The notes beneath the pieces were generated by a model. The model was not told the origin of the DNA and searched no databases. It was given only the letters and a program-made list of their open reading frames with translations. Positions 10,100-64,000 of a DNA stretch of 64,000 nucleotides are shown piece after piece. The stretch is from Branchiostoma floridae. Taxonomy: Eukaryota > Chordata > Leptocardii > Amphioxiformes > Branchiostomatidae. Every line of letters starts with the position of its first letter. The first letter of the stretch is position 1. The stretch is from positions 12,973,430 through 13,037,429 of the forward strand of contig NC_049980.1 in assembly GCF_000003815.2 (NCBI RefSeq), in the 5' to 3' direction. Made by a program: the position numbers and the translations under genes.

Positions 10100-11774
10100 T
10101 CAGCGACAAATAAATTCATTCGGTGGCACCTGCTCAAGTTTCATTCCTGCTAGCCGTTTTGGCTGGGAGCACCTCATCTTTTCTTTACCGGTCACGCGCA
10201 CTTTCTCGTCTCCTGCCAAAAACTCTGTCAGCCACTTCAGATCACAATCACACGACCATGGGTTGTCCTCCATAGAGACCAACCGGAGATACCCCCCGCT
10301 TAAAGTGGACTTGTCCAAACTTGTTAGGTTGCACCTGTCCATGCTGAGCATTTTTAACTTTGGCACGTACAGCAGGGCGTCCTTCTGAATTTTCCTCAGC
10401 CGTTGATTCCCAGACAGCGACAAAAATTGCAAATTTGGCACGTTCAAGAAGAATGTCCTGCTGATCGTGACTAACCCAGGAATAGCACCAATGTGGAGAA
10501 GTTTCAGTTCCTCCAAACCTTCGAATGACTGTGGCGTTAGCATTCTGACAGGGTTTCCACTGAAGTACAGGTTTTCCAGCCATGTAACTCGCTTAACTGC
10601 CATCGGTACGTCACGGAAGCGATTAAAACTTAAACTTATGCTCTTCAAGTTCTTGTTATACCGAAAGATGTCCTCAGGCAAGTCCCGTAACTTGTTCATG
10701 TCCATCGAGATGCCCCACAACTTCTGCGAACCGTATATCAGATCTCTATCCACCCTTCTGATGCCCATGTCAAACATTTCAATGTACTCCACATTATACA
10801 GATACGCGAACAGGCCACGTGGAACTGTTTTGTGTGGCATCCTCCCATACAGACGTAGCATACGCAGTGTATTAATATGTAAAGCTGATGAATGAAGAGG
10901 AGTCCTAGGATTATCGTACTTCATAACAAGGCTCTGTAGGTTCCGCAGGTAGTAGAATGCGTCTAGTTCCACTTCATAGATCCGATTTCCTGCCAGGTCC
11001 AGGTACTTGAGCCGGCTGAGATGCTGAAACATGGAGCGTGAGATGACACCGAAGTGGTTGTTAGCCAGGTAGAGTTTGACCAGGTTGTACAGACCGAGGA
11101 AGGAGAACTGGGTGATCCCACCCTCCGTCAGCATGTTCTTGTTCAGGTTGAGTTCCTCCAACCTGTCCATCTTACTGAAGACAAAGTCTGGAACACTCTG
11201 TCGAGAAAATGACAGCGTTTGAAATGTAGATCAACTGTGCACTAAAATACACTGTTCACTATCAAAAACCGAATATCACCTGAATACCAGTTTGACAATA
11301 GCAGGGCATGTTAACTGTCACAAATGGAGTGGTCAACCCAAAACCTAAAAAAATCAATTTGCTTCAATGTCATATTGCCACTGTACTTTTATTCAAGTGT
11401 TGGAACAACTTTGGAACTGGGCCATACATTTCCAATTCTGCAAGTCTCCAGTTACACCATTTTTCTCTGGTGGTCTGGTAACAAACTTTGACACATCGAA
11501 GACAATGATACTACAAGCAAACCGAAAACAATACCTCCATGAAGATAAAAGCACAATAAGTTACCTTGATCATATTGTTGCTGTAGTCAAGTTGTTTTAT
11601 GCTTTGAGGTAGGTGCGGTGAAATTTCCCTGATGTTTTTCCGTCGACAGCTAACGTGAGGGAGAAACTTGTAACACAGGCAGCGAGGTGGACACCTAAGG
11701 GGTCTTGCCTTGTCCTGACATAGCACGGCGGAGACGAACAGGAGCACCATCCATAGCCTCGTTCCCATTTTCAT
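10100..11774 (-). CDS. Secreted leucine-rich-repeat protein (LRRNT-LRR-LRRCT)
   Basis: Two exons on the minus strand: 11774-11565 (70 codons, phase-0 donor) and 11197-10100 (TGA at 10102-10100), 435 residues. Residues 1-20 (MKMGTRLWMVLLFVSAVLCQ) form a signal peptide. An LRRNT cap follows with Cys pattern C-x3-C-x-C-x8-C (CPPRCLCYKFLPHVSC). About 13 repeats come next, for example MDRLEELNLNKNML, LKYLDLAGNRIYEV and LQFLSLSGNQRLRKI. It ends with an LRRCT cap (NPWSCDCDLKWLTEF, then MRCS and FICR). The protein stops directly after the last cap Cys, and no membrane segment or GPI-type tail is visible, so I infer it is secreted. Two Met codons lie at 11774 and 11768; either leaves the signal peptide. 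Lancelets carry very many LRR proteins, so no orthologue is named. Confidence 0.88.
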
Positions 11775-32301: not shown

Positions 32302-32425
32302 ATGGCTGCAGCACGTTTGAAGTGCGTTTCGGTGTGGCTTTCATGGATTATTCTGCTGTCAGTTTTGGAGGCGGCAGTTGGACTGCGCGTTGCCGAGGTG
32401 CACTGGGACTTGGGCGATGATTTTG
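32302..32425 (+). other. Signal-peptide exon of the VWA/SEA gene
   Basis: 41 codons plus one base. A hydrophobic core (SVWLSWIILLSVLEAAVG) follows Met-Ala-Ala-Ala-Arg, then LRVAEVHWDLGDDF. Donor GTAAGT, phase 1. A second start is unlikely because the next in-frame exon has no Met. Confidence 0.8.
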
Positions 32426-35400: not shown

Positions 35401-38400
35401 ATATCATCTATCAGAAAATAACGCTCGCGTCTGGAGTGGAATGCCCCTTAAGCTTACTACCCTCAGCGATACATTGTGCCCGACGTCGGTCATACAAGTA
35501 GTTGGCCTACTCTCAACTCTGTCCAAAGTAAAAGTGACCAAAGTGAAAGTTACTAAAGTGACTTTTTTTATATTCACTTTTGGAATAGTCTGGGGTGCGC
35601 GATGGTTGAAATATGCTGTATTTGCTCGCAAATGGTCATGTCTAGTCTTAATAATATTTTCCTTTAGCCGCTGATATCCCGGACTTCATCTTACCGAGCG
35701 GAGTGAGAGTTCGGTTTAAGAGGAACGTCGCTGCCCCGACAGTCGCACCAACTGAAGCTCCTACAACGATCCCGGGATGCTCCAACAGTTCCAGGTATGT
35801 CAAGTAGAGTAGGTCCTTGATTACAAGTTGTGTTGTTGATCGTCTTATTACCTTAGGCTTAGAGGTGGATTTTAAGCTTTCGTCAGGCTGGAGTTTAGAA
35901 GGCGGGGGATTATTTTTGCCGTGTTTCATTCCTACATGATCCTTCTTATCATTTTTTATTTTGTAGCAATACTTTGCTTACACCTAAGATGAAAGAACCT
36001 TTACAACGCATAGTGTGGTACAATTTGATATAGTGAGAAACTTAAATTAAGCCCCTGTCACATATTCAGTATCTTTCCACCACTTTGCTCCCGACCACTC
36101 TACAACCAAGGTGGGTTTTTGGTTCGAAGTAACCTACTTCACCCTCCATTAGCTTCACTTCAATCCTAGATCCCCCGATCGCATTTGATCATGAAGAATA
36201 TACCTTTCCCGATTTTGATAGTCCAAAATTCACAGTCGGCAGCTAGTGCATTATTAAGCAACCTCATCATCGACTGAAGGTCGGGAGTGCCATGGTAGGA
36301 AAGATACGTGTGGCAGGGGCATAACATTCTAAGCGGCTGTCGTTCCCTTCTTTCAAAGGGTCCAGCAGCTAAAGATCGGAGTGAGGCTGAATCTCACTCG
36401 CTCCTCCATCGAGGAAGCACGAAGAGTGTTCCTCAACGCCACACGAGTCGGGCGGCTGGGCTCGCTGAGAGTTCAGAATGGATCCGGGTCCTGGGACCAG
36501 TGTCCGTACCGCTCTCCCAACAACTTCTCCGGCTCAGAGAATCAGCGGATTCGAGTCGGCGTCCGGCTAAGTCTGGCTACCTCTGCGGTCGGGGAGGCGC
36601 AGAGTGTATTCCAGAACGGCGTAGTGGCGGGAAGATTGGGATCACTCAACGTGGTGCCAGGGTCTGGGTACTGGGACCAGTGCGTGAGCCATTCTCTGAC
36701 GACGCCATCATCTGGGTCGAGCATTCAGCGGATCCGGGTCGGTGTTCATCTGAACATGACTCGCTCAGCTCACGAAGAAGCACGGGAGTTGTTCCTCAAC
36801 AAGACCAAGGAGGGACGCCTGCGCTCTCTGCGTGTGGTGCCACGATCCGGGTACTGGAACCAATGCGGGAATGTCTCCATCATTCCCGATAAACCAACAC
36901 AAAGACAGCGTATACAAATGGTGGTGAAGTTGACAATGAACGAAACGGCGATCGACGAGGCACAGAAGTTGTTCTTGAATATGACGGGTGCAGGAAGGCT
37001 TGGCTCGCTGACTGTAGTGCCGGGATCAGGGTACTGGGATCAGTGTCCGGCTCGTGTACTCACACCGACTCCCGAACCACTCGGAAGGGTATGTTCCAGA
37101 GTTTTAGTTAGATTTTAAGTGGTAGATGCTTTTATCTGTAACAACTACTAGTATATCAAAACAGAATATGCCACTGTGTCAACAGAACCTTTTGTCCTTA
37201 ACATGTTTCGATGTTGTTGTTTTTTGCTACAACCAGAAAGAAATGATTTCCACGATAGTACATACATAGCTACATACTGAATTCGAATGATATTCCTCTT
37301 ATTACATGTTGTACGATTCTGCATGGTTGTAGAATGTTGCAGCTTTTTCTTAGTCGTGTAGCATCCTCCGTAAACGATGAACCAACTTTTCCATTATAGG
37401 TAAACTTTCAACAAATCATGATTTATGTAAAAGTGAAAAATATTCATTGACAATAACTTATTAACAACCATAAGGGAGAACAGCATACATGTACTAACAA
37501 AGGAATTTCGTACATGTAGATGTGTACATTTGCGTTGATTTATAACTCTTACTACCAAGTGCACAAAGTGGTATTTGACAGATTTTTGGAATGTTCTCTG
37601 CTGTTTACAGGTTCTGTTCGGCGTCGAGCTCTCTGTGCCGGTGTTTGCCATGAACGCGACCCGCCAGGTGTTCCAAGATCACATGGAGAACAACGGGACG
37701 CTGGGAGGTCTGACGGTGGCGTCCGACACGGCGGTGTTTGGTACGCACAACGAACTGGGTGGTATTCATATGCCACCTTGATGGTCATTTGACGTTGCAT
37801 TTGCGCCACCTTACGTGGTATACTTGAACAGACATTTACAATTGTGAGGGATTCCGAGCCAACTGTTGGTTATACCCCCCTCACATTAGACGAAAATCGA
37901 TCGGACGACGGGTCTGCGAGCTCTAAATTACGAGGGGGCATGACCCTGACGGGAACGGGGGAACTCTGCCATTTCTTCATCGGCATCAGGGTCATGCCTC
38001 CTCGTAATGATGGTCATTTGACGTTGTATTTACGCCACCTTGCGTGATATATTTGAATAACCATTTACACGTGTGAGGGATTCCGAGCCAACTGTTGGTT
38101 ATGGAAAGTCCATGCAAACTAAGTAGTATGGCACTCATGCTAAGGGATGTCTACCATGGCGGGACTTTCAAATTGTGTATCTTATCTTTTACCACATTGT
38201 CCTATAAAAAGTCCGACACTAGGGAATGGAGTTTTATTTTCCAATGGACTCAAGATACCTTTCTCTCACGATGATGATCTAAACGTTGACAGATCGACGG
38301 ACAAAACTAAGCCACATTGGAAAATTTTCGTTCAAGCAATTTTTCGTGTATCAAAATGTATCCAAATATGATACATTGATGATATCCATTTACAGGTGCC

Positions 38401-41400
38401 TTCCGGATGTACACCTCATTTATCCTGGAGCAGAGGTATAACAACACGCTGGACGACCTTACGTCATCGGAGTCTAGAACTCTCATTGGTCGCGTGGAAT
38501 CTGCGGTAAGAACGCCAGTTTTTCTTCAATATACATCCGCCCTTCCCTTCCTTCAGGCACAGGTGATTTATCTACGAAGAGTTTAATCTAGTATCCTTAT
38601 AAAAAAAATGTAATGGGGTGATATCGGTATGGCATTGTCTTTAATCAGAGATGATTACATTCTACTTGTATCTATACAGGTCAGGCTGGCGCTTACCCGT
38701 GTTACCGGAGTTCAGTCAGTTGAGTTCTACGATTTCAGACGAAGGTAAGACGCCCTAATATCTGTCTGTATCTACATAGCCGTTATAACCGCCCTTCGGC
38801 GTAACGCACCACCTTGTAGAAGAACTTTTACAAATCAAGTTAACACCGCCAAACTTGGTAAAATGTGCCTGTAAAATGTGCATGTATATTGGTGACGTAT
38901 ACATGTTCAACATGTATTCCTTCTTCCCAAAGTTCCGGAGAGAAGAAACCAGTCAGTATCGTGAGGCTAACCCTCGGTGCCAACTCCGTCACCTCTGCTG
39001 AGCAGGCCATCTGTTCGTGTGTGCGCACGGGTGAGATCGGGAGTCTCACCGTGGACTCTGGGCACTGCACCTTCGAGGCCGTCCGTGAGTATTTGTTCAT
39101 ATTATTTTCATATCGTTTATATTTCGGAGTTCAAAGTTGTAGATTGAAGCTTTCCAGATTTGATCCTGTCATGAATATTATCTTATCACTAGGTATCTCA
39201 CCAAACACTAACCTTGTATCACATTTCTTTACCACATTTACAGTTCACTATTAATGTCGACATGTCTTTGTGTACATCTCCGCGTTTTATATGACTGATT
39301 GACGGCGGGGTGACATTCATGGAAGGCTGTCATACCATTTGATTTCAATAAAGTTTCGAGCAGGCTGTGACAGAACCAACCGTTCACAAGGATCTAACAC
39401 TGCCTTTTCTGTAATAAGCTGAACTCCGTACGACATAGTATCACTATCTTAATAATGCCCTTAGTTTCCTATCGTGCGATGATCATACGACGAATGTGAC
39501 CTTTGTTTGTTACTTCGTTCATCTAATAGTAACATATATTGTAATCAACATTTTCCATAGAGCCCTGTACTATGTACAAACTTAGATAAATGTACAATTA
39601 CAGATTTACACACAGTGAATAACTAGCGGTAACATTTCTTTACAATGCTCTCCTAGCACCAACGTGTCGAAACGCGGTGGACCTGGTGTTCCTGGTAGAG
39701 TCGTCCGACGCCGTTGGTCAGGACGGCTTCCCCTGGGTCCAGCGCTTCATCACGTCAGTGTTGGGCGCCCTGACGATCGGACCAGACTTCTTCCAGATAG
39801 GGGTGTATCAGTTCAGCAATGTCGTCCGTCAGATCGTACCTCTTGGTGCTTTCTCCAAAAGGTACGTGATTTTTTTTTATACATAACGCGATAAACACTA
39901 TGTAATCCTCCTATTTCTATACCAGTCTACCAATCATCATCCCCAAAAGAAGATGCTGTGAACTTACGTGGTTATAGAGTTAAAGGCAAAGTGCATTCTA
40001 TACGTCAGTCAAATTGTTGTTGTTTTTTCCGTGTAAGTGGCTGAAAGTAACGATGACTGCTCTGAACATAAACGTGGAAGCCAATGAGCTTTTATCAGAA
40101 GCAATGTAGAAGTGTGGAAGGATCCACAAAACTGTCATTTTAGTTTACGATTGATGTTTACAACGTGTTTGTGACCGCAAATTGTCTCCACATTACAGTG
40201 CTGACATACAGAGGCAAGTTAGGTCCATGGCTCTGCTCGGAGGCGAACCCCAACTGACATCCAGCATGGTTTACGTCCTACAGCACGGGTTCCGGGTAAA
40301 CTCAAGACAGGGTACTCCTAAGGTATTTTCCGTTATCAAGTGGTTGGTGTATAGTTCTGTCCTTTGTTTACTCAGATTAGATAGTGGCAAGGTGGTCGTG
40401 TGTGACTTGTGGTAAGGGTTATTGACCAAGAGTTCTGAATTCATAGCAAGCCTTTATACCCATTTTCTCACTCGACTCAGGTGAAAATGTGTACCTAACT
40501 TCCTTTAACTTTTGGGGTGTCCTTTTCGGAGGTCCCACCACAATTAAGAACCAAGCTTGCTTCTAGATTCGCCCTTCTAAACGTATGATCATATATATGC
40601 CGTCTGTGTCGACAGCATTCTTACTCATTCGCTACTCCATTACTGTAGGTTCTTGTGCTTGTGGTGAGCGACAATTCCACCACCAGCGGACTCGACATGG
40701 TGGCTCAACATGCTGCTCAGAACGGCGTTGTGGTGTTCGGGGTTGGGGCAGGAGCAGGCCCATTGCGGGGGCAGCTGGAGACATTGGTCGGCTCCACCAC
40801 CGCCGTCAGCGTCGCTACGAGCTTCACGAGCCTGAAGCAAACAGAAAAGGGCGTCGTCAATAGTCTCTGCAACGGTACAGTGATTTGCTTTGCTAGGTGT
40901 TACTACATTCCCCAAACAGAGAGTGCTTTCTACTACATAAAAAGATATATCGATATATTGATTTTATTGATGATTATTATATATGTATAATTATAAGTAA
41001 ATAAGGCTTTGATATGTTGATTTTCAATATTCGCAAAATAGATACATGTTGTCAACCATATAAAAAGATGTGAAACGCATAAATCCAAACCCGATATGTG
41101 GTTAATTCGTCGTTCGATAAGATGAGTGCACTGCGTAAAATTGTAATTCTCCGACAGACGTTTTAGACTGGAAAGTCGTTAGCATATTGACCACACTCAC
41201 ACTACAATCACTGGTTGGAATTCCTTACGTAAAACTGAACACACACTTATTACGTAGGCACTTGAGTCTGTGAAGATAGGTTGAAGAATTATAACTTTTT
41301 GTGTTTTACAATACATTTTCATGTTTTCAAAACAGTTGGTCAGTTCCTGTACGGCACGGTTGTCATCAGAAGACGATTCAACGAGACTCTGCGAGATCCA

Positions 41401-53400: not shown

Positions 53401-56400
53401 ACACAAATTGCCATTATTTTGTTAGCGTACAATGATCGGATGATGAGTGTGACCGGGCCGTCCCGGGTGATGCGACATTCAAAGCGTTATTCACAATAGA
53501 AATTAGAAGAAAATATCGAAATAGAAATGCGTTAAAACATATTTCCGTTCTTGCACAGTATGTAACAGCATCTATGAACCTGACAACAATATCACCACTT
53601 GTCCTTGTTGATCAAGGGTTATATAGTATACTAGTTTTTTGCTGCCCCTACGGCCGGTGAGGCTATGGGACCAGTGAGGTGAGTGAGGTGAGAGTTTTTA
53701 GATGTCTAATACATGGGTCTTTTTTACAGCACTACTCTGCGGTAATTCGTTGGATATCATCTATCTTGTCGACGGTTCCGGAAGCGTTGGAGCGAACAAC
53801 TTTGAGAAAGTCAAACTATTCATCAAGAAGGCTGTTTCGGGATTTGTTATCGGTCCCGCTGCTACACAAGTTGGGGTCATACAATACAGCAGTAAAATCA
53901 GGCAAGAATTTTCAATGAATTCTTTCCAAACGGTTAGCGGTTTACTGGGAGCAATTGATGCCATGGAATACATGCAAGGTGGCACACTGACGGGACGAGC
54001 TATCCGTTACGCCAGCAAGTATGGCTTCTCAGTATTCGACGGAGCTCGTCGAGGAGTTCCCAAGGTGCTGGTTGTTGTGACGGATGGAGTCTCGTCAGAC
54101 GAAGTAGCTATTCCGGCTTTGGAAGCACAGCGACAAGGCATTTTTGTGTACGCCATTGGTGTTTCTAACTACGACGCAGAACAACTGCAGAAAATTGCCA
54201 GTACGAACGAGTCCTCGGCTATGGTGGACAACTTCAACCTCTTGGACAGCGTGAGGAACACATTGCTGACGAGCGTGTGTGATGGTGAGATTTATAATCC
54301 ATGCCTTAAGGGTCATTTCCACTTTTCTCATGTCTTTAATGTTTTTGAGATAAAGAATTAGATATACATGTATATATGCACAGGAAGTCTACTAAAATTG
54401 TTTTGTTTTTTCAGTGACACCTCCTGTCTATGCATCTGTGATATTGAACACCCAGTTCACGACAGCGCTCCGAAACCCAGGATCTGCTGAGTATACCAAT
54501 CTCTCTGTCAGAGTAAAGACGGAGGTAAGCAGATTGTTGTATTGATGGAATAAAATGTTCACCACTCAAGATATCGTTTGACTGATCAGAGGCTAAAAAT
54601 GGCCTACTAAAACCTGACTGTTTTGTCCACAGGTTTCACGGTTGTTCCTTTCCATCGTTGGATTTCGAAGTGTGTCTGTTGTTGACTACCAAGCAGCGTG
54701 AGTAGCAAATCATATGTTGACTCGTAAATATATCTTGAAGCAACGATACTAAGGTTTGCTTGACAAGAAGAGGCGCATCTATTTCTTAAACATCTGTTTT
54801 ATCTGTAACCGTGATCTGTATTTTTTTCTACAATGTTGTAGGGCTGGCAATCGAGTGAAAGTTGTGTTGGTAGTGTTTGTTTCCGAGTTCGCAGTAACCA
54901 GCACGAATCAAACGTTCATCAGCATAACTCACACAGGGAGTATAGGATCGATTTCTGTCGATGCATCATCAGCTTTCGTTGTTGGAGAGGGTAAGACGAT
55001 GTTGCCTTTTTTAGCATTAGCATTATTATTTAAAACAGAGCTATTCGTAAATATAATATGACTGTAATAACGTGGTTAATAAAATTTTTTTACAAAGTGT
55101 ACAAATAATCATGATTAACATGTTGCGGCGATGAATATATTGGACTTAACTATTATATAGAGTGTCAATAGTTTCAGGTCATTTTCTGCTCTCAATGGGT
55201 GGATTTGATTAGACTGGGCAAAATGAAAACCAAACATGTAAAGCTTAACTAAAGCCCATCATGCCTTATCTATTTATTTATTTGTTTGCATCAGGCCCAT
55301 GGCCCATAGAAGCAGACACAGTACAGAGATTAAAAAAACTACACTTACAAAGAGTTAACTATTATTTATTTACTTAAAGCATATGGCGCTACTGTTTCTG
55401 GTACAACGTTAACGTTGTTTATATTTGCCCAGAAACCGTACCAGTTGTGGTGAGTCTTGTTGTGAGGGACCTTTGCAACGCCGATCTACTCAACCCAGAT
55501 TCTGCAACGTACAGGGCATTCGTCACTCAAGTAGAGAGCGCGGTAGGGTTAAGTTTTATTAGTGTTTCTTTGCCTGCTTTCAGTGTACTTTTACCATCTT
55601 GAACCCTTCTTTTTAAACGATTACTGTAACGTGTCATTTCAGGTATTGTCAATTCTAGGAAACATTCCAGCAGTGCTTTCCGTAAGAGTAACCGGAATCC
55701 GTTGCTCGTAAGTATATGCCGTATCTATATGAATTTGACCAAGATGCAATGGCTTAGGTGTGCAGTCGGTATGTCGTGAGGTCAAACACGGCCGGTTCAG
55801 ACCAAATGGACTTTCAAAATGGTACTGCTTTCTCTGCTTAACACTCGGTACCTATGAGAAAGAGTTGGTCACGCTTATTCATAGGGAGCAGGACTCCTAC
55901 CGTGGCTCCCTGTGTGGCCAGAAGGCCAGAGAGATGGGCACCCCACTCACACCGAAGGCGTGGGGAAGACTAACAATGAATTTCGGTTTATACATTGCTT
56001 TAATTTGTAACCTTCCAACGTTGGCGTCATGATAGTTGCCAGTTGGCGGCAATAGTTTACACTAGCGTCATGGTTAAATCACTTATTCATTGCTTACTCT
56101 TACGTTCATGTTTTCCCAATGATAGGGGACTTAACGTCCAGGTGACTATCAGTGTGACCGTTACCTCAACGTCTTCCAATCTCCTGATCACTACTGTGTC
56201 TACGGCTGTACGACAAGGAAGCATCGGGAACTTGACTGTCAATGCGGACTCCTTTTTGTCGGGGATGGCAGGTAAGAGGACCATTTTGCTATCTTAAACC
56301 ACATAGAAAACAAACCAAGAAATACCATATTAACTGATGATACAGAACTTAAGCAACCGCACATTAAGTTGTCATTCAAACAGAGCTGACGTCAGTGGAC

Positions 56401-59400
56401 AAGTTATATATTCTTTTTATTATCTTTGACAAAAGTACCGTCTTTTCTTTAGCTCTGGTGTGCCAGAATCCGCTGGACATCATTTTTCTAATTGACGGAT
56501 CCGGAAGCGTCGGTGCATCCAACTTTGAAAAGGTCAAGCAGTTGATGCAAAAGACTATTACAGGGTTTGACATCGGTCCCAACACAACCCAAGTCGGGGT
56601 CATCCAATACAGCTCGACAGTCAGACAGGAATTTTCCATGAACACCTTCCACACAAATGAAGCTGTGTCGACAGTAATAGATGAGATAGGATACATCCGA
56701 GGCGGCACGCTGACAGGAAAAGCTATTCGATATGTGAGTAGATATGGCTTTGCAGAGAGAGATGGAGCTCGTCCTGGAGTACCCAAAGTTCTCATCGTCG
56801 TGACGGATGGTGTCTCATCTGACGCAGTAAAACAGTCGGCGTTAGAGGCGCAGCAGAAAGGAATTTTCGTGTTCGCGATAGGTGTTGCCGGCTACGATAT
56901 GGCCCAACTGGAACAGATTGCAAGCAGCAATAGGTCTCTGGCTGTGGTGGACAACTTCAATCTCTTGGACAGCTTGAGGAACTCGCTTCTAACGGGAGTT
57001 TGTGATGGTAAGATTTCATAGTAATTTGTTTAACTCTAGATCAGTGAACTTTTGCTCCAATATAAAACGTTGTCAATGTTTGATGACTCTTTGTCCAAAT
57101 CAATGTGAAGATGACAGTGTATCCCTTTACTATTTTCACTTAGTTCCATCGCCTGTGGTCATAAGTCTCACACTGACCATCCAGTATTCCACAACAATGA
57201 GGAACCAAACCTCTATTGAGTTTGGCAGTATTTCTACAAGCCTTGCAACCGAGGTGAGCCCCAGTTTCTGACTAGTTTGAGTAAAGTCTAACTAAGACCG
57301 TCAAGCTTCATCGTGCACATGTTGGCAATTTGACTACTCTCGATTAGCCCTCTTACAGTACCATGTCGTTTCATTTTACAGTTATCTCGGATCTTCGTCG
57401 ATATTCCGGGATTTCAAGGCTTGACCATTGTGGGTCTGCAACCAACGTAAGTATATGTATATAAATGTAAATGGCGGCGCAATTCAGCTACTGCTGCTAT
57501 GCCGTGTATCTGTAAATAAAACTTGTCAAAACTTGTCAAACTGAGTGCTTAGATGCCATCTTTTAGTTAAACTTCAAAGAAAATCTTTCAAAATTAATTT
57601 CAATCTTGTTTAGTCCTAAGAATACGTCAACAAGCGTCATCGGATGTATGTCATTTGAAGTCATGCCGTAACTATTACTGTGACAAACATAATCTTCCTT
57701 TTTCTCACCTTTAGACCCACGAATCAGGTGAAGGCGACCATTACTGTGTTTGTGGCGCAATTTTCAACAACCACGATGAAAGTAACATTCATCAGTGCCG
57801 TGCAAACTGGGAGCTTGGGGTCAATATCAGTGAATACGTCTTCTGCACTCGTCATCGAACAAGGTAGGCAGATATAATTTGCCATCAAGTATAAATTTGA
57901 ATTTATTTAAGATAAGAGGATTTTTCATCAATCAGTGACTGTATGAAAGGTAAGTACACGTACCTCCAAATTTTCGATGGCTATCAGTCCATCTTGATCA
58001 CGGAGTGACCTATTTCTCGCGAGAGTTAGGAGACATACAGTCACTGATGAAAAATCCTATTAACTGTGAACATACGTGACTAATGAATCTCTTCAACGAA
58101 TTTATTTAAACTGGAAAATGTTATCAAGAATGAAGAGACGTAAATCAAGTGACAGCCATGTATCTTTTTCTTTTTTGATATGTGCTTAAGCTAATTACAC
58201 TGAAGGCACCAGCACAGGGGGGTTGGGTATATCTATTTAACGGTAGGTCCGATCGCAATTACTAGTAGAAAACAGCTCAGGCTTCAGGCTCCTCAGTCGG
58301 CAGAGGGACCGCTCTCTGCTGTGATACCGTGGACACTGCTGGGGAACAGTGGTCCTATTTATGACGAGTTGTGTCGATCATCTTATTAATTTTTACACCA
58401 CAGATGCCACGCAGTTGTTAGTAAGCTTTGTCATCACGGATCCGTGCAACGCCGATTTTCTCAACTCAGACTCTGCAGCGTACATGCAATTCGTCATTCG
58501 AGTGGAGAATGCGGTAAGCTTATTTGGCGTGCATTTGAAAGGATAATACCTTTATCGACAAGAAAGTCATCAATTTAAGAAAAAAGACTAGTATAGGTAT
58601 GACTCTTAAACTAAGACTGCAATATTCTATATTTCACAGTTAATGTCTTATACCGTTTTGTAGACTTAGTGGCTCTTCGTTTTTGTGCCTAAAATGTGTT
58701 GCATTCGTTTAAAGTGAATGTCATATTGCTGAAACATTCTGCTTTACAATATTCAGCTGCTTTCGATTCTTGGAAATATACCGGGAATACTGTCTGTGAA
58801 AGTGACCAGCATCAGTTGCTCGTAAGTAGAATCCTTTGTCACTATGTATTAATCTCCAAGCAGATCCTACGGTGCCATTAGATCACGATGATAAGATAGT
58901 ATCAAAGCTACCCAAGGAGTATAGCTGGCCAAAGGGAGTAAATTATAAAACGGGCACCGCATACACACTCCTAGGTCGGCTTGACTCCTCTTCCAGCATT
59001 TGATGCTATCTTATGCTACCGTAGGATCTGCTTAGAGATTAAGTATGTGTAACATTTGTCGTTGTCTTTATGATACAAATTAAGCAACCAGATTTCTTAT
59101 TTCCCTGTCTTTGGAACCTAAAATAAGAGAAATGACGTTCTTTTTTATGGTGCAATCTGAATTTCTCTTTCAGTGGGCTTTACATCAGAGTGACTATTAG
59201 TTTAGGAGTCGTATCAGCGTCCTCTGGTGGACTTGTCACGGCAATCTCTACAGATGTATCATCAGGAAGTGTAGGTGACCTGACTGTCGATCCAACTTCG
59301 TTCATTTCAGGGGAAGAAGGTCAGTAGACGATGATCAACTGTATTTTTGTGTGCAGAAACATAGCGACAGTTTAGAAAGAGTCAAAGTTATTTCAAATTT

Positions 59401-62400
59401 AGCGTAAGTTTCATGTTGTCTATTGACATTGAAAGTAGGAACCAAAGATTTAACGTACATAGCTCAAGAACTTGTCACCATATCGCTGTAAGCTCGCCTG
59501 TTGTGTGTAATTAGAGAGCAATAATGGAATGGAATTTCATAACAATATCATATCATTCAATTTACAGCGCTGGTGTGTCGAACTCCTCTGGACATCATTT
59601 TATTGCTAGATGGGTCTGGAAGTGTAGGGGCCTACAACTTCGAGAAAGTGAAACAGTTTTCTCAAAAGCTCGTCGAGACCTTTGACATCGGTCCATCTGC
59701 AACGCAAATAGGGGTTATCCAATACAGCACGCGTGTGAGACAGGAATTCTCCATGAACAGCTTCCAAAGCAAAGAAACTTTGTCCAATGCAGTCGACGAT
59801 ATTGCATACATGCGAGGCGGTACACTGACTGGAAGGGCTATCAGGTATGTGAGCAGGTACGGCTTTGCAAGATCGGATGGAGCTCGTCCGGGAGTAGCAA
59901 AAGTGCTTATTGTCGTCACAGATGGCATTTCGTATGACGGAGTGGCAACACCAGCATATAAAGCAAGACAGAAGGGAATCCTTGTCTACGCTATTGGTGT
60001 GTCAGGCTACGACCTGACGCAGCTCGAGCAGATCGCCAGCAATAACAGGACCTTGGCTGTGGTGGACAACTTCAACCTGCTGGATAGTCTGAGGAACACA
60101 CTTTTGACTGGAGTTTGCGATGGTAAATATGTTTTTGCATTTTTGTCAGGTTTTGGGGTCGAGAAATTGATTTTTTGTAAAGACGCAGGCCTTACACACT
60201 TATTTATCTTATCATTTACAGCCGTGCCACCAGTCTTTGTGTGTGTAACATTGACTACCCAGTTCTCCATACAACTGAGAAACCCTGACTCGAGCGAATT
60301 CTCCAGCATCACCAGTGCTCTCATTGCAGAGGTAGGGAAATGTTTGTTGCCATTATTGGAATTAAAGCATGTATACATACCTCAATTTCATCATATCACC
60401 TTGACTTTTGTCTGAATAAAATCATGGCTTTACCGGTAAATCGTCACAGGAATAAATAAAGCGTTTGATCATGAATAACACATTGAACCTTTTGTGCAGG
60501 TATCCCAACTATTTACCTCCATCGTGGGATTCCAAGGAGCAACTGTGGTTGGTTACCAACCTGCGTAAGTAGACCTCTTCAAGATCTTCTTCATTAAAGC
60601 TTATACATGTATCATTGTATACCTGACCGTGTAGTTATTTATCTTCAGAAGCTCTGAATGAAATAAGCTGGTGTTTATCCGGCTCCTTTTTTTTTTTTGG
60701 AGTCGACATACACAGTTGCCGTAATATTTCTTCCAACTTACTGTATTTCGTCGTTTGTTGATATACCATTACCAAATCAAAATAGAATTGAATGCTTTGC
60801 TGATAGGATCTCTTTCATAGAAAACAAATGTGTAATGATTTGCTATCATTTCAGCCCTGACAATCAAGTAAAAGTATCAATTGCTGTCTTTGTTGCTGAG
60901 TTTGCTGCTACTACTATGAAGCAAACATTTGTTGTTGCTGTAAGCACTGGCAACTTGGGGTCTATATCGGTGAATGCAAGCTCCGCCGTCATTGTTCAAC
61001 AAGGTAAGGATTGATTTATTAAAGATGATTATCACTTCTTATCCTTGCGTTTGTTGTGCTGCTCTTTGCAACGTTAATTTCAATAACTTTTTTCCACTGG
61101 TCGTCATATTATAAAAGAGGCTACGTTGGTGAAAAGAGCCATGTTGTTGTGTAGTTGGTCAAGATCTTTCCTTCATGAAACCGACATTAGTCACAATTTT
61201 TACTCTGCTCTGTCTTCCTTTCACCAGAAACGAATTCAACCATAGTAAGTCTGGTAGTTCAAAGGAATTGCAGTGCAGATCTACTCAACCCGGAGTCAGC
61301 GATGTACATTGCCCTGGTCGCTCAAATTGAATCTGCGGTGAGATCATATGACGAATTTATTGATGACTAGGCATATAAAAAGTGTTGTTTAGAGCTGAAG
61401 ACACTTTTTCCATGTCGACGCTAAAATCTCTCAGGAGTTTCCTTTTGCTTTATGTAGTATTGCTAGCAATTCACACACAAGGAAACACTAGTTACATGCA
61501 TGATTGTGTTCCATATTAATTGATAACATTTTCTCGTGGGTTTTGTTTGGTGATTTTGAATTGTTGGCAAGATTTTAGACATCTATATCATTTTCAGGCA
61601 GCTTAACATACTTGATGCCTTGTGACTAATAAGCCCTTTAATTGATCATTTTTAGGTGCTGTCTATTCTTCAAAACNNNNNNNNNNNNNNNNNNNNNNNN
61701 NNNNNNNNNNNNNNNNNNNNNNNNNNNNNNNNNNNNNNNNNNNNNNNNNNNNNNNNNNNNNNNNNNNNNNNNNNNNATTTCTGTTGACTTCAGACCGAGG
61801 CCTAGTCCAACCTTTGCATTTAGCACCAGTGCACTGCGACACATTGCTGTATAATTATCGGACGTTGACAACCTTTTTTTTTTTTCTCTCCAGTGGGCTT
61901 TACATCAGAGTAACCATTACTGTAGTGGTGGTGTCCACGTCCTCTAGTTCACTAGTGACGACAGTCTCTACAGCGGTATCATCAGGGAATGTGGGAGGCC
62001 TGACTGTCGATCCAACTTCATTCATTTCAGGAGACGAAGGTCCGTAGATCATATTCAGGATTATTGTAATGTCTCTCTGTCTAAATAGATTAATGCAGAC
62101 GTATTTTCTAAAAGTGCAAGAGTTTCATAATCGTTGCAAGTTATTGTGGCCTAACATTATAGCATTTTGTTTTCTCCATATGTACTCAGGAACCGTTCAA
62201 TATCCTTGTGAAGTCGTCCGTTGGGTGTATATAGTGGAAATAAACACTGAAATAGCAGATGTGACCAGTTAACAATTATATATTTTTTTTACAGCTTTAG
62301 TGTGTCGAACACCTCTGGACATCATTTTGCTGTTGGATGGATCAGGAAGCGTAGGGGCCTACAACTTTGAGAAAGTGAAACAGTTTTCTCAAAAGCTCGT

Positions 62401-64000
62401 CGAGACCTTTGACATCGGTCCATCTGCAACGCAAATAGGGGTTATCCAATACAGCACGCGTGTGAGACAGGAATTCTCCATGAACAGCTTCCAAAGCAAA
62501 GAAGCTTTGTCCAATGCAATCGACGATATTGCATACATGCGAGGCGGTACACTGACTGGAAGGGCTATCAGGTATGTGAGCAGGTACGGCTTTGCAAGAT
62601 CGGATGGAGCTCGTCCGGGAGTAGCAAAAGTGCTTATTGTCGTCACAGATGGCATTTCGTATGACGGAGTGGCAACACCAGCATATAAAGCAAGACAGAA
62701 GGGAATCCTTGTCTACGCTATTGGTGTGTCAGGCTACGACCTGACGCAGCTCGAGCAGATCGCCAGCAATAACAGGACCTTGGCTGTGGTGGACAACTTC
62801 AACCTGCTAGATAGTCTGAGGAACACACTTTTGACTGGAGTTTGTGATGGTAAATATGTTTTTGCATTTTTGTCAGGTTTTGGGGTCGAGAAATTGATTT
62901 TTTGTAAAGACGCAGGCCTTACACACTTATTCATCTTGTCATTTTCAGCCGTGCCGCCAGTCTTTGTGTGTGTAACATTGACTACCCAGTTCTCCATACA
63001 ACTGAGAAACCCTGACTCGAGCGAATTCTCCAGCATCACCAGTGCTCTCATTGCAGAGGTTGGGAAATGTTTCTTGCCATTGGAATTAAAGCATGTATAC
63101 ATACCTCAATTTCATCATATCACCTTGACTTTTGTCTGAATAAAATCATCGCTTTACCGGTAAATCGTCACAGGAATAAATAAAGCGTTTGATCATGAAT
63201 AACACATTGAACCTTTTGTGCAGGTATCCCAACTATTTACCTCCATCGTGGGATTCCAAGGAGCAACTGTGGTTGGTTACCAACCTGCGTAAGTAGACCT
63301 CTTCAAGATCATCTTCATGAAAGCTTATACATGTATCATTGTACACCTGACCGTGTATTATAGTCTCTTATTATATTATTCAGACCTTCAGAAGCTTTGA
63401 ATGAAATAAGCTGGTGTTTATCCGGCTCCTTTTTTTAGGAGTCGACATACACAGTTGCCGTAATATTTCTTCCAAATTATTATATTTCGTCGTTTGTTAA
63501 TATACCATTACCAAATCAAAATAGAATTGAATGCTTTGCTGATATGATCTTTTTCATAGAAAACAAGCGTGTATGGTTTTCTATCATTTCAGCCCTGACA
63601 ATCAAGTAAAAGTATCAATTGCTGTCTTTGTTGCTGAGTTTGCTGCTACTACCATGAAGCAAACATTTGTTGTTGCTGTAAGCACTGGCAACTTGGGATC
63701 TATATCGGTGAATGCAAGCTCCGCCGTCATTGTTCAACAAGGTAAGGATTTATTTATTAAAGATGATTATCACTTCTTATCCTTGCGTTTGTTGTGCTGC
63801 TCTTTGCAACGTTAATTTCAATAACTTTTTTTCCACTGGTCGTCATATTATAAAAGAGGCTACGTTGGTGAAAAGAGCCATGTTGTTGTGTAGTGGGTCA
63901 AGATCTCTCCTTCATGAAACCGACATCAGTCACAATTTTTACTCTGCTCTGTCTTCCTTTCACCAGAAACGAATTCAACCATAGTAAGTCTGGTAGTTCA
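32302..64000 (+). CDS. Giant secreted multi-VWA / SEA-like modular protein (3' end outside window)
   Basis: One chain of about 60 exons in consistent phase, about 3,500 residues in the window and continuing beyond it. Start ATG 32302 opens a signal peptide (LSWIILLSVLEAAVG). Order: linker; five half-modules (36359-37740); SEA1; VWA1; SEA2; SEA3; VWA2; SEA4; VWA3; SEA5; SEA6; VWA4; SEA7; SEA8; VWA5; SEA9; SEA10; VWA6; SEA11; SEA12; VWA7; SEA13; SEA14; VWA8; SEA15; SEA16 (cut). VWA domains resemble the collagen VI/matrilin type (LDIIFLIDGSGSVGASNFEK, TQVGVIQYSS) and are closed by Cys at both ends. The SEA-like assignment rests on pattern only (F..xL.NP.S..Y then V..G.IG.L.V..SS). No membrane segment is seen. 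No family with this architecture is known to me. That it is one gene is inferred from unbroken phase and repeat logic. Confidence 0.82.
33135..33338. mobile_element. MITE with GGGCGYGGTCACA ends, copy 1
   Basis: Left end AGGGCGCGGTCACA then CGTGCGATCGTCGTAC; right end GTACGACGATCGCACG then TGTGACCACGCCCT. These are inverse ends of about 38 bp with small gaps. The middle contains CAGGCCGTGACAGAACCAAC, also present in two diverged relatives at about 39300-39510 and 53200-53465. All three lie in introns of the VWA/SEA gene. Confidence 0.7.
34240..34375 (+). mobile_element. Retrotransposon 3' tail ending in (AAAC)n
   Basis: TTAAGTTTTTTTTCCCTCCT, CCTGCACCTG, then TGCAAACTGAATAAAC and four to five AAAC units (to 34372). 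The order matches the block at 9280-9400. Probably a LINE/SINE 3' end; upstream limit unknown. Confidence 0.45.
34555..35450. mobile_element. Possible DNA element with inverted AAGGGGCATTCCACTCCAGA ends
   Basis: AAAGGGGCATTCCACTCCAG at 34555 and its inverse CTGGAGTGGAATGCCCCTTA at 35431-35450 are about 850 bp apart in intron 1 of the VWA/SEA gene. No transposase ORF is visible. The inverted ends are clear; that they bound one element is inferred. Confidence 0.4.
35668..35794 (+). other. Linker exon of the VWA/SEA gene
   Basis: Encodes ADIPDFILPSGVRVRFKRN followed by a Thr/Pro/Ala-rich stretch (APTVAPTEAPTTIPGCSNSS). RFKR is a possible furin-type processing site. The stretch is a likely O-glycosylated spacer with one Cys (both inferred). 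Enters in phase 1 and leaves in phase 2. Confidence 0.65.
36359..37740 (+). other. Five tandem half-modules (SEA-like C-terminal half)
   Basis: A 730-nt exon (36359-37088) encodes four copies of about 60 residues, each with a core like QRIRVGVRLSLATSAVGEAQ, then GRLGSL and a GSGYWDQC signature. A fifth, diverged copy without that Cys is on the exon 37611-37740 (ELSVPVFAMNATRQVFQDHM). They match only the third exon of the later SEA-like modules; no matching first or second exon lies between copies. The DNA repeats at about 180 bp. Confidence 0.7.
37780..38102. repeat. Direct repeat pair flanking a hairpin
   Basis: GATGGTCATTTGACGTTGCA (about 37780) through GATTCCGAGCCAACTGTTGG recurs at about 38007-38102, about 228 bp further on. 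Between them an inverted pair (ATTACGAGGGGGCATGACCC at about 37928 and its near inverse ending CTCCTCGTAAT at about 38008) could form a stem of about 24 bp. Intronic. Confidence 0.65.
38396..39084 (+). other. SEA-like module 1
   Basis: Exons 38396-38505 (110 nt), 38680-38744 (65), 38933-39084 (152). First part RYNNTLDDLTSSESRTLIGR, middle VRLALTRVTGVQSVEFYD, last part ending GEIGSLTVDSGHCTFEAV. The first complete three-exon module. The third exon carries three Cys (CSC and HC), more than later modules. Confidence 0.65.
39300..39510. mobile_element. MITE of the GGTCACA family, copy 2 (diverged)
   Basis: Contains GAGCAGGCTGTGACAGAACC and, near the right side, ATCGTGCGATGATCATACGA then ATGTGACC. 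These align with the centre and right end of the element at 33135-33338; the left end is eroded (GGGGTGACATTC). Confidence 0.5.
39657..40874 (+). other. VWA domain 1 (three exons, no MIDAS)
   Basis: Exons 39657-39861 (205 nt), 40199-40322 (124), 40649-40874 (226), total 555. Opens CRNAVDLVFLVESSDAVG and ends VVNSLCN. The metal-site DxSxS is ESSDA, and the Thr loop reads GGEPQLTSS, so metal binding is unlikely. The strand-4 motif VLVLVVSDNS keeps its Asp. Confidence 0.82.
41336..42031 (+). other. SEA-like module 2
   Basis: Exons 41336-41445 (110), 41657-41724 (68, one codon longer than usual), 41877-42031 (155). First part RFNETLRDPTSQEFLNLT; middle GGNCLQRIVVAEFRGAG; last part GRIGTLVVDPASAVLG. 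One Cys in the middle exon and one in the last, the same placement as module 5. Confidence 0.6.
42157..43935. repeat. 41-bp minisatellite, ~43 copies, with 246-bp higher-order repeat
   Basis: Unit GAAGCAGTTCTGTCCTTGGT followed by GCTGAACATCATTTACACAAG (41 bp). It is diverged at the left end (42157-42520), homogeneous from about 42580, and fades after 43880. Variants (TTCACACAGTGAA, ACAAGAAAG) recur six units apart, for example TTCACACAGT at 43181 and 43427. Sits in the intron between exons 41877-42031 and 44172-44284. The 41-bp period is not a multiple of three, so it is not a coding repeat. Confidence 0.95.
44172..44804 (+). other. SEA-like module 3
   Basis: Exons 44172-44284 (113), 44441-44505 (65), 44653-44804 (152). 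First part TSQCFIPSLLDILSTEYRQF; middle LLNVFSNVEGIRSVQVQEIS; last part GGSLGLFTIDQSTVFFG. Cys in the first and last exons, as in module 6. Confidence 0.6.
45024..45578 (+). other. VWA domain 2 (single exon, degenerate MIDAS)
   Basis: One 555-nt exon, phase 1 to 1. Opens CRAKLDIVFVLDGSDHVG, then FTIGVNTTMVGVLQYSS, and ends LSSVCTG. DxSxS is DGSDH, the Thr loop is GGANVGQ, and the third site reads LVSGGPSS in place of the usual TDG, so all three metal sites are altered. Confidence 0.85.
46089..46905 (+). other. SEA-like module 4
   Basis: Exons 46089-46198 (110), 46307-46371 (65), 46757-46905 (149). First part FTGELGNPNSAAYSILVTQI; middle LLFLFRDIVGLQGIAITSLQ; last part GRIGTLVVIPGSLFVLRE. No Cys. 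Its closest relative by exon lengths and ending (LRE) is module 7. Confidence 0.6.
47211..48354 (+). other. VWA domain 3 (three exons, degenerate MIDAS)
   Basis: Exons 47211-47454 (244), 47802-47925 (124), 48129-48354 (226). The first is the 205-nt exon of VWA1 plus 39 nt, adding a Thr/Pro linker (TTAAPPTTPQIKP). DxSxS is DSSNA, and the third site is LTSGQ. Intron positions and phases equal those of VWA1. Confidence 0.82.
47521..47539. repeat. (CA)n microsatellite
   Basis: About nine CA units in the first intron of VWA3. Confidence 0.85.
48504..49095 (+). other. SEA-like module 5
   Basis: Exons 48504-48613 (110), 48750-48814 (65), 48941-49095 (155). First part PFNGTLRNTSSHYFQTLAAQ; middle NRDCVQRIVVTEFRGSG; last part GRIGTLVVNASSGELGFE. 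Counterpart of module 2 in the second super-repeat. Confidence 0.6.
49346..50220 (+). other. SEA-like module 6
   Basis: Exons 49346-49458 (113), 49797-49861 (65), 50069-50220 (152). First part TSQCFTAALLDPTSPEHQEL; middle ISTIFSNVPGIQSIQIQDIS; last part FGSFTVDSSTVFFG. Counterpart of module 3. Confidence 0.6.
50614..51168 (+). other. VWA domain 4 (single exon, partial MIDAS)
   Basis: 555-nt exon. Opens CRAPLDIVFVLDGSNSVG and ends LASSCAG. DxSxS (DGSNS) and the Thr loop (GGVTNIGEAL) are intact, but the third-site Asp is lost (VVTAGTSSDG). Intermediate between the degenerate N-terminal and intact C-terminal copies. Confidence 0.86.
51525..52352 (+). other. SEA-like module 7
   Basis: Exons 51525-51634 (110), 51939-52003 (65), 52204-52352 (149). 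First part FSEQLRNPRSSAFVTLVTQI; middle LRVLFTDIAGFYGAVVAGFS; last part GSIGSLFVITGSSGVLRE. No Cys. Confidence 0.6.
52480..53171 (+). other. SEA-like module 8
   Basis: Exons 52480-52589 (110), 52769-52833 (65), 53026-53171 (146). First part RCSGDLYDPKSPVYTGFV; middle ILSILGHIPGLLSVQVTHVG then Cys; last part GRVGNLTVDPSSLLFG. First of the two-Cys subtype with a 146-nt last exon that alternates with the Cys-free subtype from here on. Confidence 0.62.
53200..53465. mobile_element. MITE of the GGTCACA family, copy 3, with 20-bp tandem insert
   Basis: AGGTCACATC (left) and GAGTGTGACCGGGC (right) frame a centre with CAGGCTGTGATAGAACCAAT, as in the copy at 33135. Inside, TACGAGTCGACATATGCAAA is repeated four times perfectly at 53317-53396. 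Confidence 0.6.
53317..53396. repeat. 20-bp perfect tandem repeat, four copies
   Basis: TACGAGTCGACATATGCAAA at 53317, 53337, 53357 and 53377 with no mismatch, in the intron before VWA5. Confidence 0.97.
53730..54284 (+). other. VWA domain 5 (single exon, intact MIDAS)
   Basis: 555-nt exon. Opens CGNSLDIIYLVDGSGSVG, then FVIGPAATQVGVIQYSS, and ends LTSVCDG. DGSGS, GGTLTGRAIRY and VVTDGVSSD supply all three metal-site elements. Confidence 0.9.
54415..54990 (+). other. SEA-like module 9
   Basis: Exons 54415-54524 (110), 54633-54697 (65), 54842-54990 (149). First part FTTALRNPGSAEYTNLSVRV; middle VSRLFLSIVGFRSVSVVDYQ; last part GSIGSISVDASSAFVVGE. Cys-free subtype. Confidence 0.6.
55245..55370. 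mobile_element. Possible retroelement fragment
   Basis: TATTTATTTATTTGTTTGCA, then CAGGCCCATGGCCCATAG and an A-rich run (55330-55342). Looks like a short interspersed repeat in antisense orientation; not assigned to a family. Confidence 0.3.
55433..56271 (+). other. SEA-like module 10
   Basis: Exons 55433-55542 (110), 55643-55707 (65), 56126-56271 (146). First part LCNADLLNPDSATYRAFV; middle VLSILGNIPAVLSVRVTGIR then CS; last part GSIGNLTVNADSFLSG. Two-Cys subtype. Confidence 0.62.
55745..55965 (+). mobile_element. Possible SINE
   Basis: TTAGGTGTGCAGTCGGTATG then GAGGTCAAACACGGCCGGTT resembles a degraded tRNA-type A/B-box order. It is followed by a unique body up to about 55965. Intronic. 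Weak support. Confidence 0.25.
56453..57007 (+). other. VWA domain 6 (single exon, intact MIDAS)
   Basis: 555-nt exon. Opens CQNPLDIIFLIDGSGSVG, then FDIGPNTTQVGVIQYSS, and ends LTGVCDG. Metal-site elements DGSGS, GGTLTGKAIRY and VVTDGVSSD are all present. Confidence 0.9.
57144..57863 (+). other. SEA-like module 11
   Basis: Exons 57144-57253 (110), 57382-57446 (65), 57715-57863 (149). First part YSTTMRNQTSIEFGSISTSL; middle LSRIFVDIPGFQGLTIVGLQ; last part GSLGSISVNTSSALVIEQ. Cys-free subtype. Confidence 0.6.
57917..58058. mobile_element. MITE-like element, inverted AGGATTTTTCATCA ends
   Basis: AGGATTTTTCATCAATCAGT then GACTGTATG at the left; CATACAGTCACTGATGAAAA then ATCCT at the right. Inverse ends of about 27 bp, total about 142 bp, intronic. 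Confidence 0.65.
58404..59319 (+). other. SEA-like module 12
   Basis: Exons 58404-58513 (110), 58757-58821 (65), 59174-59319 (146). First part PCNADFLNSDSAAYMQFV; middle LLSILGNIPGILSVKVTSIS then CS; last part GSVGDLTVDPTSFISGEE. Two-Cys subtype, very close to module 14 in the last exon. Confidence 0.62.
58849..59042. mobile_element. MITE with TTAA-flanked inverted ends
   Basis: TTAATCTCCAAGCAGATCCT then ACGG at the left; CCGTAGGATCTGCTTAGAGA then TTAA at the right, 194 bp in total. The TTAA at both ends could be a piggyBac-type target duplication or simply the TIR ends. Lies in the intron of module 12. Confidence 0.7.
59568..60122 (+). other. VWA domain 7 (single exon, intact MIDAS)
   Basis: 555-nt exon. 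Opens CRTPLDIILLLDGSGSVG, then FDIGPSATQIGVIQYST, and ends LTGVCDG. All metal-site elements present (DGSGS, GGTLTGRAIRY, VVTDGISYD). Nearly identical to VWA8 apart from its first 60 bp or so. Confidence 0.9.
60222..61003 (+). other. SEA-like module 13
   Basis: Exons 60222-60331 (110), 60500-60564 (65), 60855-61003 (149). First part FSIQLRNPDSSEFSSITSAL; middle VSQLFTSIVGFQGATVVGYQ; last part GNLGSISVNASSAVIVQQ. The preceding intron is only 99 bp and has no stop in the reading frame. Confidence 0.6.
61228..62039 (+). other. SEA-like module 14 (interrupted by gap)
   Basis: Exons 61228-61337 (110), one starting at 61656 (VLSILQN visible, then gap; expected 65 nt), and 61894-62039 (146). First part NCSADLLNPESAMYIALV; last part GNVGGLTVDPTSFISGDE. 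The donor of the last exon reads GTCCGT, a weak but possible GT site. Confidence 0.58.
61677..61776. other. Assembly gap (100 N)
   Basis: Removes most of the middle exon of SEA-like module 14. It lies between two nearly identical repeat units, where assemblies commonly break or collapse. Confidence 0.99.
62295..62849 (+). other. VWA domain 8 (single exon, intact MIDAS)
   Basis: 555-nt exon. Same residues as VWA7 at all metal-site positions. From about 62360 onward it is almost base-for-base equal to VWA7 (59633 onward), while the first 60 bp or so differ at many silent sites. Confidence 0.9.
62949..63741 (+). other. SEA-like module 15
   Basis: Exons 62949-63058 (110), 63224-63288 (65), 63593-63741 (149). 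Protein sequence equals module 13, and the introns between them also match closely. Confidence 0.6.
63967..64000 (+). other. SEA-like module 16, start only
   Basis: First 34 nt of a first-type exon after CACCAG, identical to the start of module 14 (61228). It shows that the VWA-SEA-SEA series continues past the window. Confidence 0.6.

Follow-up and report, generated by a model that had tools for sequence, protein, structure and literature searches.

What kind of protein carries a long series of VWA domains interleaved with a second, three-exon module, and where does such a protein end? This question is raised by a stretch of 64,000 nucleotides of the Branchiostoma floridae genome (C2:12973430-13037429, NC_049980.1; hereafter, the window), taken from an assembly of 513,431,437 bases in 431 contigs. 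In the original prediction, eight VWA domains alternated with sixteen modules of about 108 residues, described as SEA-like by pattern only, and the series had no end in sight. Here, coordinates above 64000 are window numbering extended along C2, and addition of 12973429 converts them to positions on C2.

Gene model of the window

Exon candidates were all the open AG-to-GT intervals in the right phase, and these were scored with profiles of the VWA exon and of the three module exons (m1, m2 and m3). For VWA1, VWA3 and the N-terminus the exons were chosen manually, and a phase was forced on the last exon of M14. The splice model of positions 32302-64000 joined 60 exons into a single open frame of 3,467 residues with no stop codons, to which a single placeholder is added for the absent middle exon of M14. 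All 60 donors were GT and all 59 internal acceptors were AG. The VWA exons, or three-exon sets, had phases 1-1, and the module exons had phases 1-0, 0-2 and 2-1; therefore, every domain is a symmetrical 1-1 unit. This consistency is partly by construction, because the candidates were enumerated under the AG/GT and phase rules.

The frame contains a hydrophobic leader, five half-SEA repeats and the predicted eight VWA domains, six of them encoded by one 555-nt exon each and two by three exons each. The sixteen modules were likewise found to begin in the window, with 106-110 residues in the model; fourteen are complete, M14 has no middle exon, with a 100-N assembly gap (61677-61776) at its place, and M16 leaves the window. 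The alternation was borne out in part: the order is mostly VWA-SEA-SEA, and a single SEA separates VWA2 from VWA3. The five tandem half-SEA repeats preceding the first full SEA were absent from the original prediction. The parts of the model are as follows.

32302..32425, +: exon 1, ATG and hydrophobic leader (likely signal peptide), ending in phase 1; from sequence and splice phase
35668..35794, +: exon 2, linker with RVRFKR motif; motif by eye
36359..37088, +: four half-SEA repeats in tandem within one exon; profile match to SEA third exon
37611..37740, +: exon with fifth half-SEA repeat; similarity by eye
38396..39084, +: SEA M1, exons 38396-38505, 38680-38744 and 38933-39084; no Pfam SEA match
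39657..40874, +: VWA1, exons 39657-39861, 40199-40322 and 40649-40874, metal site degenerate; Pfam VWA 3.8e-29
41336..42031, +: SEA M2; Pfam SEA 2.3e-5, below cut-off
44172..44804, +: SEA M3; Pfam SEA 7e-4, below cut-off
45024..45578, +: VWA2, one exon, metal site degenerate; Pfam VWA, exon profile
46089..46905, +: SEA M4, sole SEA between VWA2 and VWA3; Pfam SEA 0.0019, below cut-off
47211..48354, +: VWA3, exons 47211-47454, 47802-47925 and 48129-48354, metal site degenerate; Pfam VWA 8.3e-33
48504..49095, +: SEA M5 (tree partner M2); Pfam SEA 0.015, below cut-off
49346..50220, +: SEA M6 (tree partner M3); Pfam SEA 4.6e-7, over cut-off
50614..51168, +: VWA4, Ala in place of the last metal-site Asp; exon profile, genome scan
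51525..52352, +: SEA M7, position 1 (tree partner M4); Pfam SEA 7.5e-5, below cut-off
52480..53171, +: SEA M8, position 2; no Pfam SEA match
53730..54284, +: VWA5, metal-site residues intact; Pfam VWA, exon profile
54415..54990, +: SEA M9, position 1; Pfam SEA 5e-6, over cut-off
55433..56271, +: SEA M10, position 2; Pfam SEA 0.032, below cut-off
56453..57007, +: VWA6, metal-site residues intact; exon profile, genome scan
57144..57863, +: SEA M11, position 1; Pfam SEA 3.1e-5, below cut-off
58404..59319, +: SEA M12, position 2; no Pfam SEA match
59568..60122, +: VWA7, metal-site residues intact, opens the apparently homogenised run; Pfam VWA, exon profile
60222..61003, +: SEA M13, position 1; Pfam SEA 0.0016, below cut-off
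61228..62039, +: SEA M14, middle exon missing, 100-N gap; splice model
62295..62849, +: VWA8, metal-site residues intact; exon profile, genome scan
62949..63741, +: SEA M15, protein identical to M13; splice model
63967..64000, +: start of SEA M16, first exon ending at 64076 in extended numbering; exon search

Within the array, m1 scored 52-66 bits and m3 48-73 bits. In ten base-order shuffles of positions 32302-64000 the maxima were 7.5 (m1), 11.6 (m2) and 6.1 bits (m3), and the VWA profile had no match. Bases 1-32300 gave no profile match above 8 bits (10 for VWA), and the reverse strand gave two matches, of 8.6 and 8.9 bits. The middle exons of M1, M2 and M5 scored 5.9, 2.7 and 3.1 bits in the profile scan, which is background, and were accepted on place, length and phase. 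The exon profiles were trained on the array itself, and the independent test was the comparison with Pfam and PDB. The RVRFKR motif of exon 2 (35668..35794), noted by eye, resembles a furin site.

Other elements were noted in the window. A 41-bp minisatellite of about 32 copies with 93% matches occupies 42556-43885, in the intron between M2 and M3, and four exact copies of a 20-bp unit lie at 53317-53396, in the intron before VWA5. Upstream, the plus strand carries GTPase exons at 2394-6230 (MMR_HSR1 1.8e-10 in one piece), adjoined by an acidic, lysine-rich frame suggestive of nucleolar GTP-binding protein 2. The minus strand has a 376-aa open frame with leucine-rich repeats at 10103-11230 (Pfam LRR_8 1.5e-32), and another at 3693-4187 which, by eye, we take to resemble the end of a LINE-type reverse transcriptase.

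Identity of the domains

The assignment to the VWA family was upheld: Pfam VWA (PF00092) was over the cut-off in all five window VWAs that were run (E 3.8e-29 to 2.1e-50), and VWA4, VWA6 and VWA8 were over it in the genome scan. The VWA MIDAS motif consists of five metal-site residues, D-x-S-x-S, T and D. Among the 19 of 23 VWAs of the whole series that could be aligned, the other four being split or gap-damaged, 14 kept all five residues; they are incomplete in the first four and the last VWA (39657, 45024, 47211, 50614 and 113007). When VWA6 was compared with solved chains by whole-chain score, collagen VI alpha-3 was best, with seven matched stretches, followed by proximal thread matrix protein 1, a secreted mussel protein (5.7e-32). 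Judged by these whole-chain matches, the array VWAs are of the matrix type. A search of NCBIfam with VWA6 returned four weak matches, every one of them below the cut-off.

For the other module, 13 distinct copies were run singly against Pfam SEA (PF01390), leaving out M15, which is identical to M13, and the incomplete M14 and M16. Ten were matched, the best being M6 (4.6e-7). M6 and M9 were over the cut-off of 26.4 bits (30.4 and 27.0 bits), eight modules were below it (14.8-24.9 bits), and M1, M8 and M12 had no match, so the HMM search that placed VWA over its cut-off did so for SEA in 2 of 13 modules. A joint profile of the 13 modules was then compared with PDB, where it found the SEA domains of ADGRF1 (2.5e-9, first half only) and TMPRSS11D (1.1e-4, nearly the whole module); the MUC1 SEA domain was weak (0.03), and bacterial PII proteins appeared, one at 0.0014, ahead of MUC1. 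PII proteins and SEA domains share a ferredoxin-like fold. Because of the Pfam matches and of the solved SEA domains found by the joint profile, SEA is the best identification of the modules on sequence grounds, firmer for the set than for each member, and what had been SEA-like by pattern only can be raised to SEA.

The 730-nt exon at 36359..37088 holds four tandem units of about 47 aa, each ending in WDQC or WNQC. Compared by hhalign with the three exons of the SEA modules, it matched the third, with a probability of 95.8, and had no match to the first two. These repeats thus look like SEA second halves without first halves, and pairs of them possibly make one ferredoxin-like unit. AlphaFold2 predicted a strand-helix pattern twice in a half-SEA pair, with a pLDDT of 62.7 in the best model and 40-45 in the other four. 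Foldseek with the best model found no matches at E up to 0.001; in its non-significant list a ferredoxin-like protein was on top and PII-like proteins recurred. NCBIfam had no match for the half-SEA exon.

A tree of 14 modules grouped together M4, M7, M9, M11, M13 and M15, the SEA modules directly after a VWA, and set apart from them M8, M10 and M12, which are second SEAs; M2 paired with M5 and M3 with M6. Together with the three-exon split common to VWA1 and VWA3, the tree suggests that an N-terminal block VWA-SEA-SEA-VWA-SEA was duplicated, and that the VWA-SEA-SEA unit was multiplied later. Nonsynonymous change has been held back in pairs of both domains: dN/dS by NG86 was 0.168, 0.070, 0.167 and 0.045 in four VWA pairs and 0.27, 0.27, 0.20 and 0.32 in four SEA pairs, and YN00 gave 0.22-0.59 in five SEA pairs, with the maximum for M9-M11. 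The NG86 ratio was undefined, with synonymous sites saturated, for VWA5-7, VWA4-5, VWA1-3 and M11-13.

The array beyond the window

The same exon search followed the VWA-SEA series through the next 70 kb. It continued for about 50 kb past the window, as the lack of any end in sight had led one to expect, and was then succeeded by EGF, SEA, threonine-rich and transmembrane exons. The series has a total of 23 VWAs, split and gap-damaged ones included, and 45 SEA first exons scored over threshold, including one at 117.2k, past the array. With five VWA positions entered by hand, two SEA first exons were present in 20 of the 22 intervals between VWAs, and a single one in VWA2-VWA3 and in 108.5k-113.0k.

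Tandem gene clusters are common, and a second array was found on C12, so the locus could be several shorter tandem VWA-SEA genes read by the model as one. Yet the VWA-SEA-SEA order is kept in all those 20 intervals, and inspection of the array, in a model with imposed internal phases, brought no first or last exon to notice. We regard such a cluster as quite improbable and retain a single series. The C12 array (C12:14815001-14915000) had 22 single-exon VWAs called in 100 kb, two of them apparently gap-damaged. Like the array on C2, it has SEA-like first exons between many VWAs, but their scores are low and the units measure about 2.3 kb. With the patterns used, these 100 kb contained no EGF-Ca, SEA cleavage pattern or threonine-rich exon of the array type, and the one Thr/Ser-rich frame (98.1k) was a low-complexity serine-rich stretch. 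In a VWA cluster on C16, 10 VWA exons were called in 70 kb, with no SEA-like exon of at least 12 bits. Further VWA loci lie on C17, C9, C1 and C192.

Between 59.6k and 87.8k, 2,286 bases of the reference unit at 62295 matched nine further units and part of a tenth. With the reference counted, the near-identical run has ten units and a partial eleventh, introns included. Long pieces were 96.1-99.4% identical to the unit at 62295, and two short pieces beside gaps (96 and 125 columns) were 92.7 and 93.6% identical. Runs of N interrupt several of the units, and an insertion of about 0.9 kb is present in one. Since this divergence is close to the polymorphism of B. floridae, quoted as about 4% in PMC8994340, the central units appear to have been homogenised or to be of very recent origin. 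The assembly has seven runs of N between 61.7k and 110.6k, and gaps adjoin the VWAs at 70.6k and 87.8k, both of which are broken; therefore, the assembled unit count may differ from the true number.

The last two units of the window are nearly identical, and they could be an assembly artefact in which two haplotypes were laid end to end. The 100-N gap between these first two units of the run and the six further runs of N are compatible with this, as are the differences of 0.6-3.9% in most long pieces, which two haplotypes would also show at the polymorphism quoted in PMC8994340. A plain allelic copy, however, does not explain why the third SEA exon region before VWA7 and that before VWA8 are only 79% alike over 182 nt, when mismatches number 0-7 per 100 columns once past about 59640. 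Moreover, there are about ten near-identical units, not two, about eight of them following the pair in the window. The artefact was thus mostly rejected for these two units and is held to be improbable; it bears only on the copy count, and not on the existence of the array.

The 3' end of the locus

Beyond the central run, the plus strand leads from the last VWA to a stop codon through the following parts. The C-terminal exons were hand-picked by pattern and codon score, and their borders are uncertain.

113.0k (113007), +: last VWA; metal site incomplete
113.7-114.6k, +: SEA; first and third exons, middle exon absent from the model
115678-116294, +: exon opening like a SEA third exon, then unnamed domain; by eye
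116.9k, +: EGF; Pfam EGF
117.2-117.7k, +: SEA with FRPGSVVA; Pfam SEA over cut-off
117.9k, +: EGF; Pfam EGF
118.3-122.4k, +: threonine-rich exons; composition, tandem unit
124654-125106, +: second copy of the unnamed domain; by eye
125.76k, +: EGF; Pfam EGF
126.1-126.9k, +: SEA-like exon pair with FRNGSLYG; no Pfam match
128.55k, +: EGF; Pfam EGF
129032 or 129065 to 129162, +: transmembrane exon; hydropathy
stop near 134345, +: two tail exons to the stop; phase

Pfam calcium-type EGF was matched in four of four pieces (E 6e-11 to 1.5e-8). The spliced SEA at 117k was over the Pfam SEA cut-off (4.1e-11, 43.4 bits; 8.5e-5 for its second exon alone), and the SEA-like pair at 126.1-126.9k had no Pfam match, either as pieces or spliced. 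The three threonine-rich exons, of 93, 284 and 289 aa, contain 31-33% Thr and a tandem unit of 84 nt; their N-glycosylation sequons number 8, 35 and 31, respectively. The transmembrane exon has a mean hydropathy of 2.79 over 20 residues. The unnamed domain, of 150-200 aa, was recognised by eye from a similar C-x-x-Y-(S/T)-H-x-C motif in its two copies (115678-116294 and 124654-125106), and neither had a Pfam match over the cut-off. Phases chain from the last EGF via the transmembrane exon and tail to the stop; upstream of that EGF they are compatible where exons were found, the chain there being incomplete. A PWWP-like frame lies at 131565-131729, in the presumed intron between the transmembrane and tail exons (Pfam E 0.0026, below cut-off); this frame could be part of a different gene or speak for a border between genes.

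In SEA domains that cleave themselves, the motif G-S[VIL] stands before the third strand. One narrow pattern of it, run on open frames of at least 30 aa, found two places, at 117.55k and 126.77k, and none in the array, where motifs split by introns would be missed by such a pattern.

The array could also be a secreted matrix protein like collagen VI alpha-3 or a matrilin, with the EGF, SEA, threonine-rich and transmembrane exons belonging to a neighbouring gene; the closest solved chains of VWA6, collagen VI alpha-3 followed by the secreted mussel thread protein, are in line with this. The series is interrupted by a stretch of about 6.5 kb in which no modules were recognised (97.9-104.3k) and by a gap of 1.6 kb (109.0-110.6k), and a border between genes could lie in either. 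The chain of exons also has parts missing near 114-116k, where the exon at 115678 has no SEA first or second exon in the model. Nevertheless, VWA and SEA exons resume in unchanged phases after both breaks, the last VWA exon ends about 3.4 kb before the first EGF exon, and the opening stretch of the exon at 115678 resembles, by eye, the third exon of a SEA, in matching phase. Nor did inspection of the ORF lists bring to notice any collagen repeat or coiled-coil end. We therefore consider two genes unlikely, and the reading preferred below is that of one gene running from the leader to the tail.

Comparison with known proteins

Matrilins are matrix proteins with several VWAs, and collagen VI alpha-3, the top solved chain for VWA6, has a long row of matrix-type VWAs, as the lancelet locus does. 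Unlike these, the lancelet protein has pairs of SEA domains between its VWAs and an apparent transmembrane end. MUC16 is a giant membrane mucin with a tandem SEA array interleaved with mucin repeats; the lancelet protein shares the many SEA domains of a giant membrane mucin, but interleaves them with VWA. The ADGRF1 SEA domain was the best solved match to the module profile, and no GPCR part was noticed in the lancelet gene.

In mucins of the MUC3/MUC12/MUC13/MUC17 type the membrane-side order is EGF-SEA-EGF-TM. As modelled, the lancelet locus shares with this type the leader, tandem repeats rich in threonine, a short tail and, apparently, EGF and SEA close to a single transmembrane helix. It differs from it in having about 9,000 residues of VWA and SEA before a comparatively short repeat region, and from transmembrane mucins in that the SEA-like pair adjacent to the membrane has no Pfam match. 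Transmembrane mucins are defined (PMC9080433, PMC3056801) by a leader, Thr/Ser repeats in tandem, SEA and EGF domains, and a tail behind one transmembrane helix; the definition given there does not include VWA, which is present in the lancelet protein. The original prediction knew of no named family with this series, and a full-text literature search, with most subscription papers outside its scope, likewise found no published VWA-SEA series. An automatic gene model for the lancelet locus may well exist.

A proposed adhesion protein

Taken together, we think it rather probable that the locus is one gene of about 102 kb, extending from C2:13005731 to about 13107774 on the plus strand, for a giant single-pass adhesion protein of the transmembrane-mucin type, with roughly 11,000 residues by arithmetic from domain counts. 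The order is a leader, half-SEA repeats, one SEA, and 23 VWAs mostly separated by two SEAs; then the unnamed domain, EGF, SEA, EGF, threonine-rich repeats, the unnamed domain again, EGF, the SEA-like pair, EGF, the transmembrane helix and the tail. These domains and their order are seen in the sequence, and from them we infer a single transcript and a surface location. The role in a mucus layer or in adhesion suggested in the original prediction fits the EGF, SEA, threonine-rich and transmembrane exons that the sequence holds beyond the window.

In the mechanism that we infer, the protein would stand on an epithelial surface as a giant filament of the transmembrane-mucin type. Each VWA with an intact metal site would use a divalent ion to bind a ligand, possibly matrix, mucus or a neighbour. 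In this way the near-identical run would provide a highly multivalent grip, and the paired SEA domains of the array would act as spacers. Near the membrane, FRPGSVVA and FRNGSLYG may be places of self-cleavage that leave a non-covalent link, and this putative link would let go under force, as in membrane mucins. The SEA domain of MUC17 is cleaved during synthesis and is a mechanosensor, according to PMC12172626. Unequal exchange would keep the central units alike and vary their number.

A more specific picture can be put forward tentatively, as possible rather than probable: a cephalochordate adhesive membrane mucin built of near-identical VWA-SEA-SEA units, whose number presumably varies between individuals. 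Copy number would set the length of the filament and the number of its metal-dependent grips, MIDAS-degenerate VWAs would cap both ends of the active run, and the half-SEA repeats would cap the tip.

The domains are known, and their arrangement appears to be new. Membrane mucins protect epithelia by glycan-rich repeats, and here the ectodomain would consist mostly of folded adhesion domains on a mucin-like anchor. If it is one protein, it joins the toolkits of the matrix-type VWA proteins and of the membrane mucins in an animal close to vertebrates, and its apparently homogenised array offers a case for how coding tandem repeats of multi-exon units stay alike and may vary in number.
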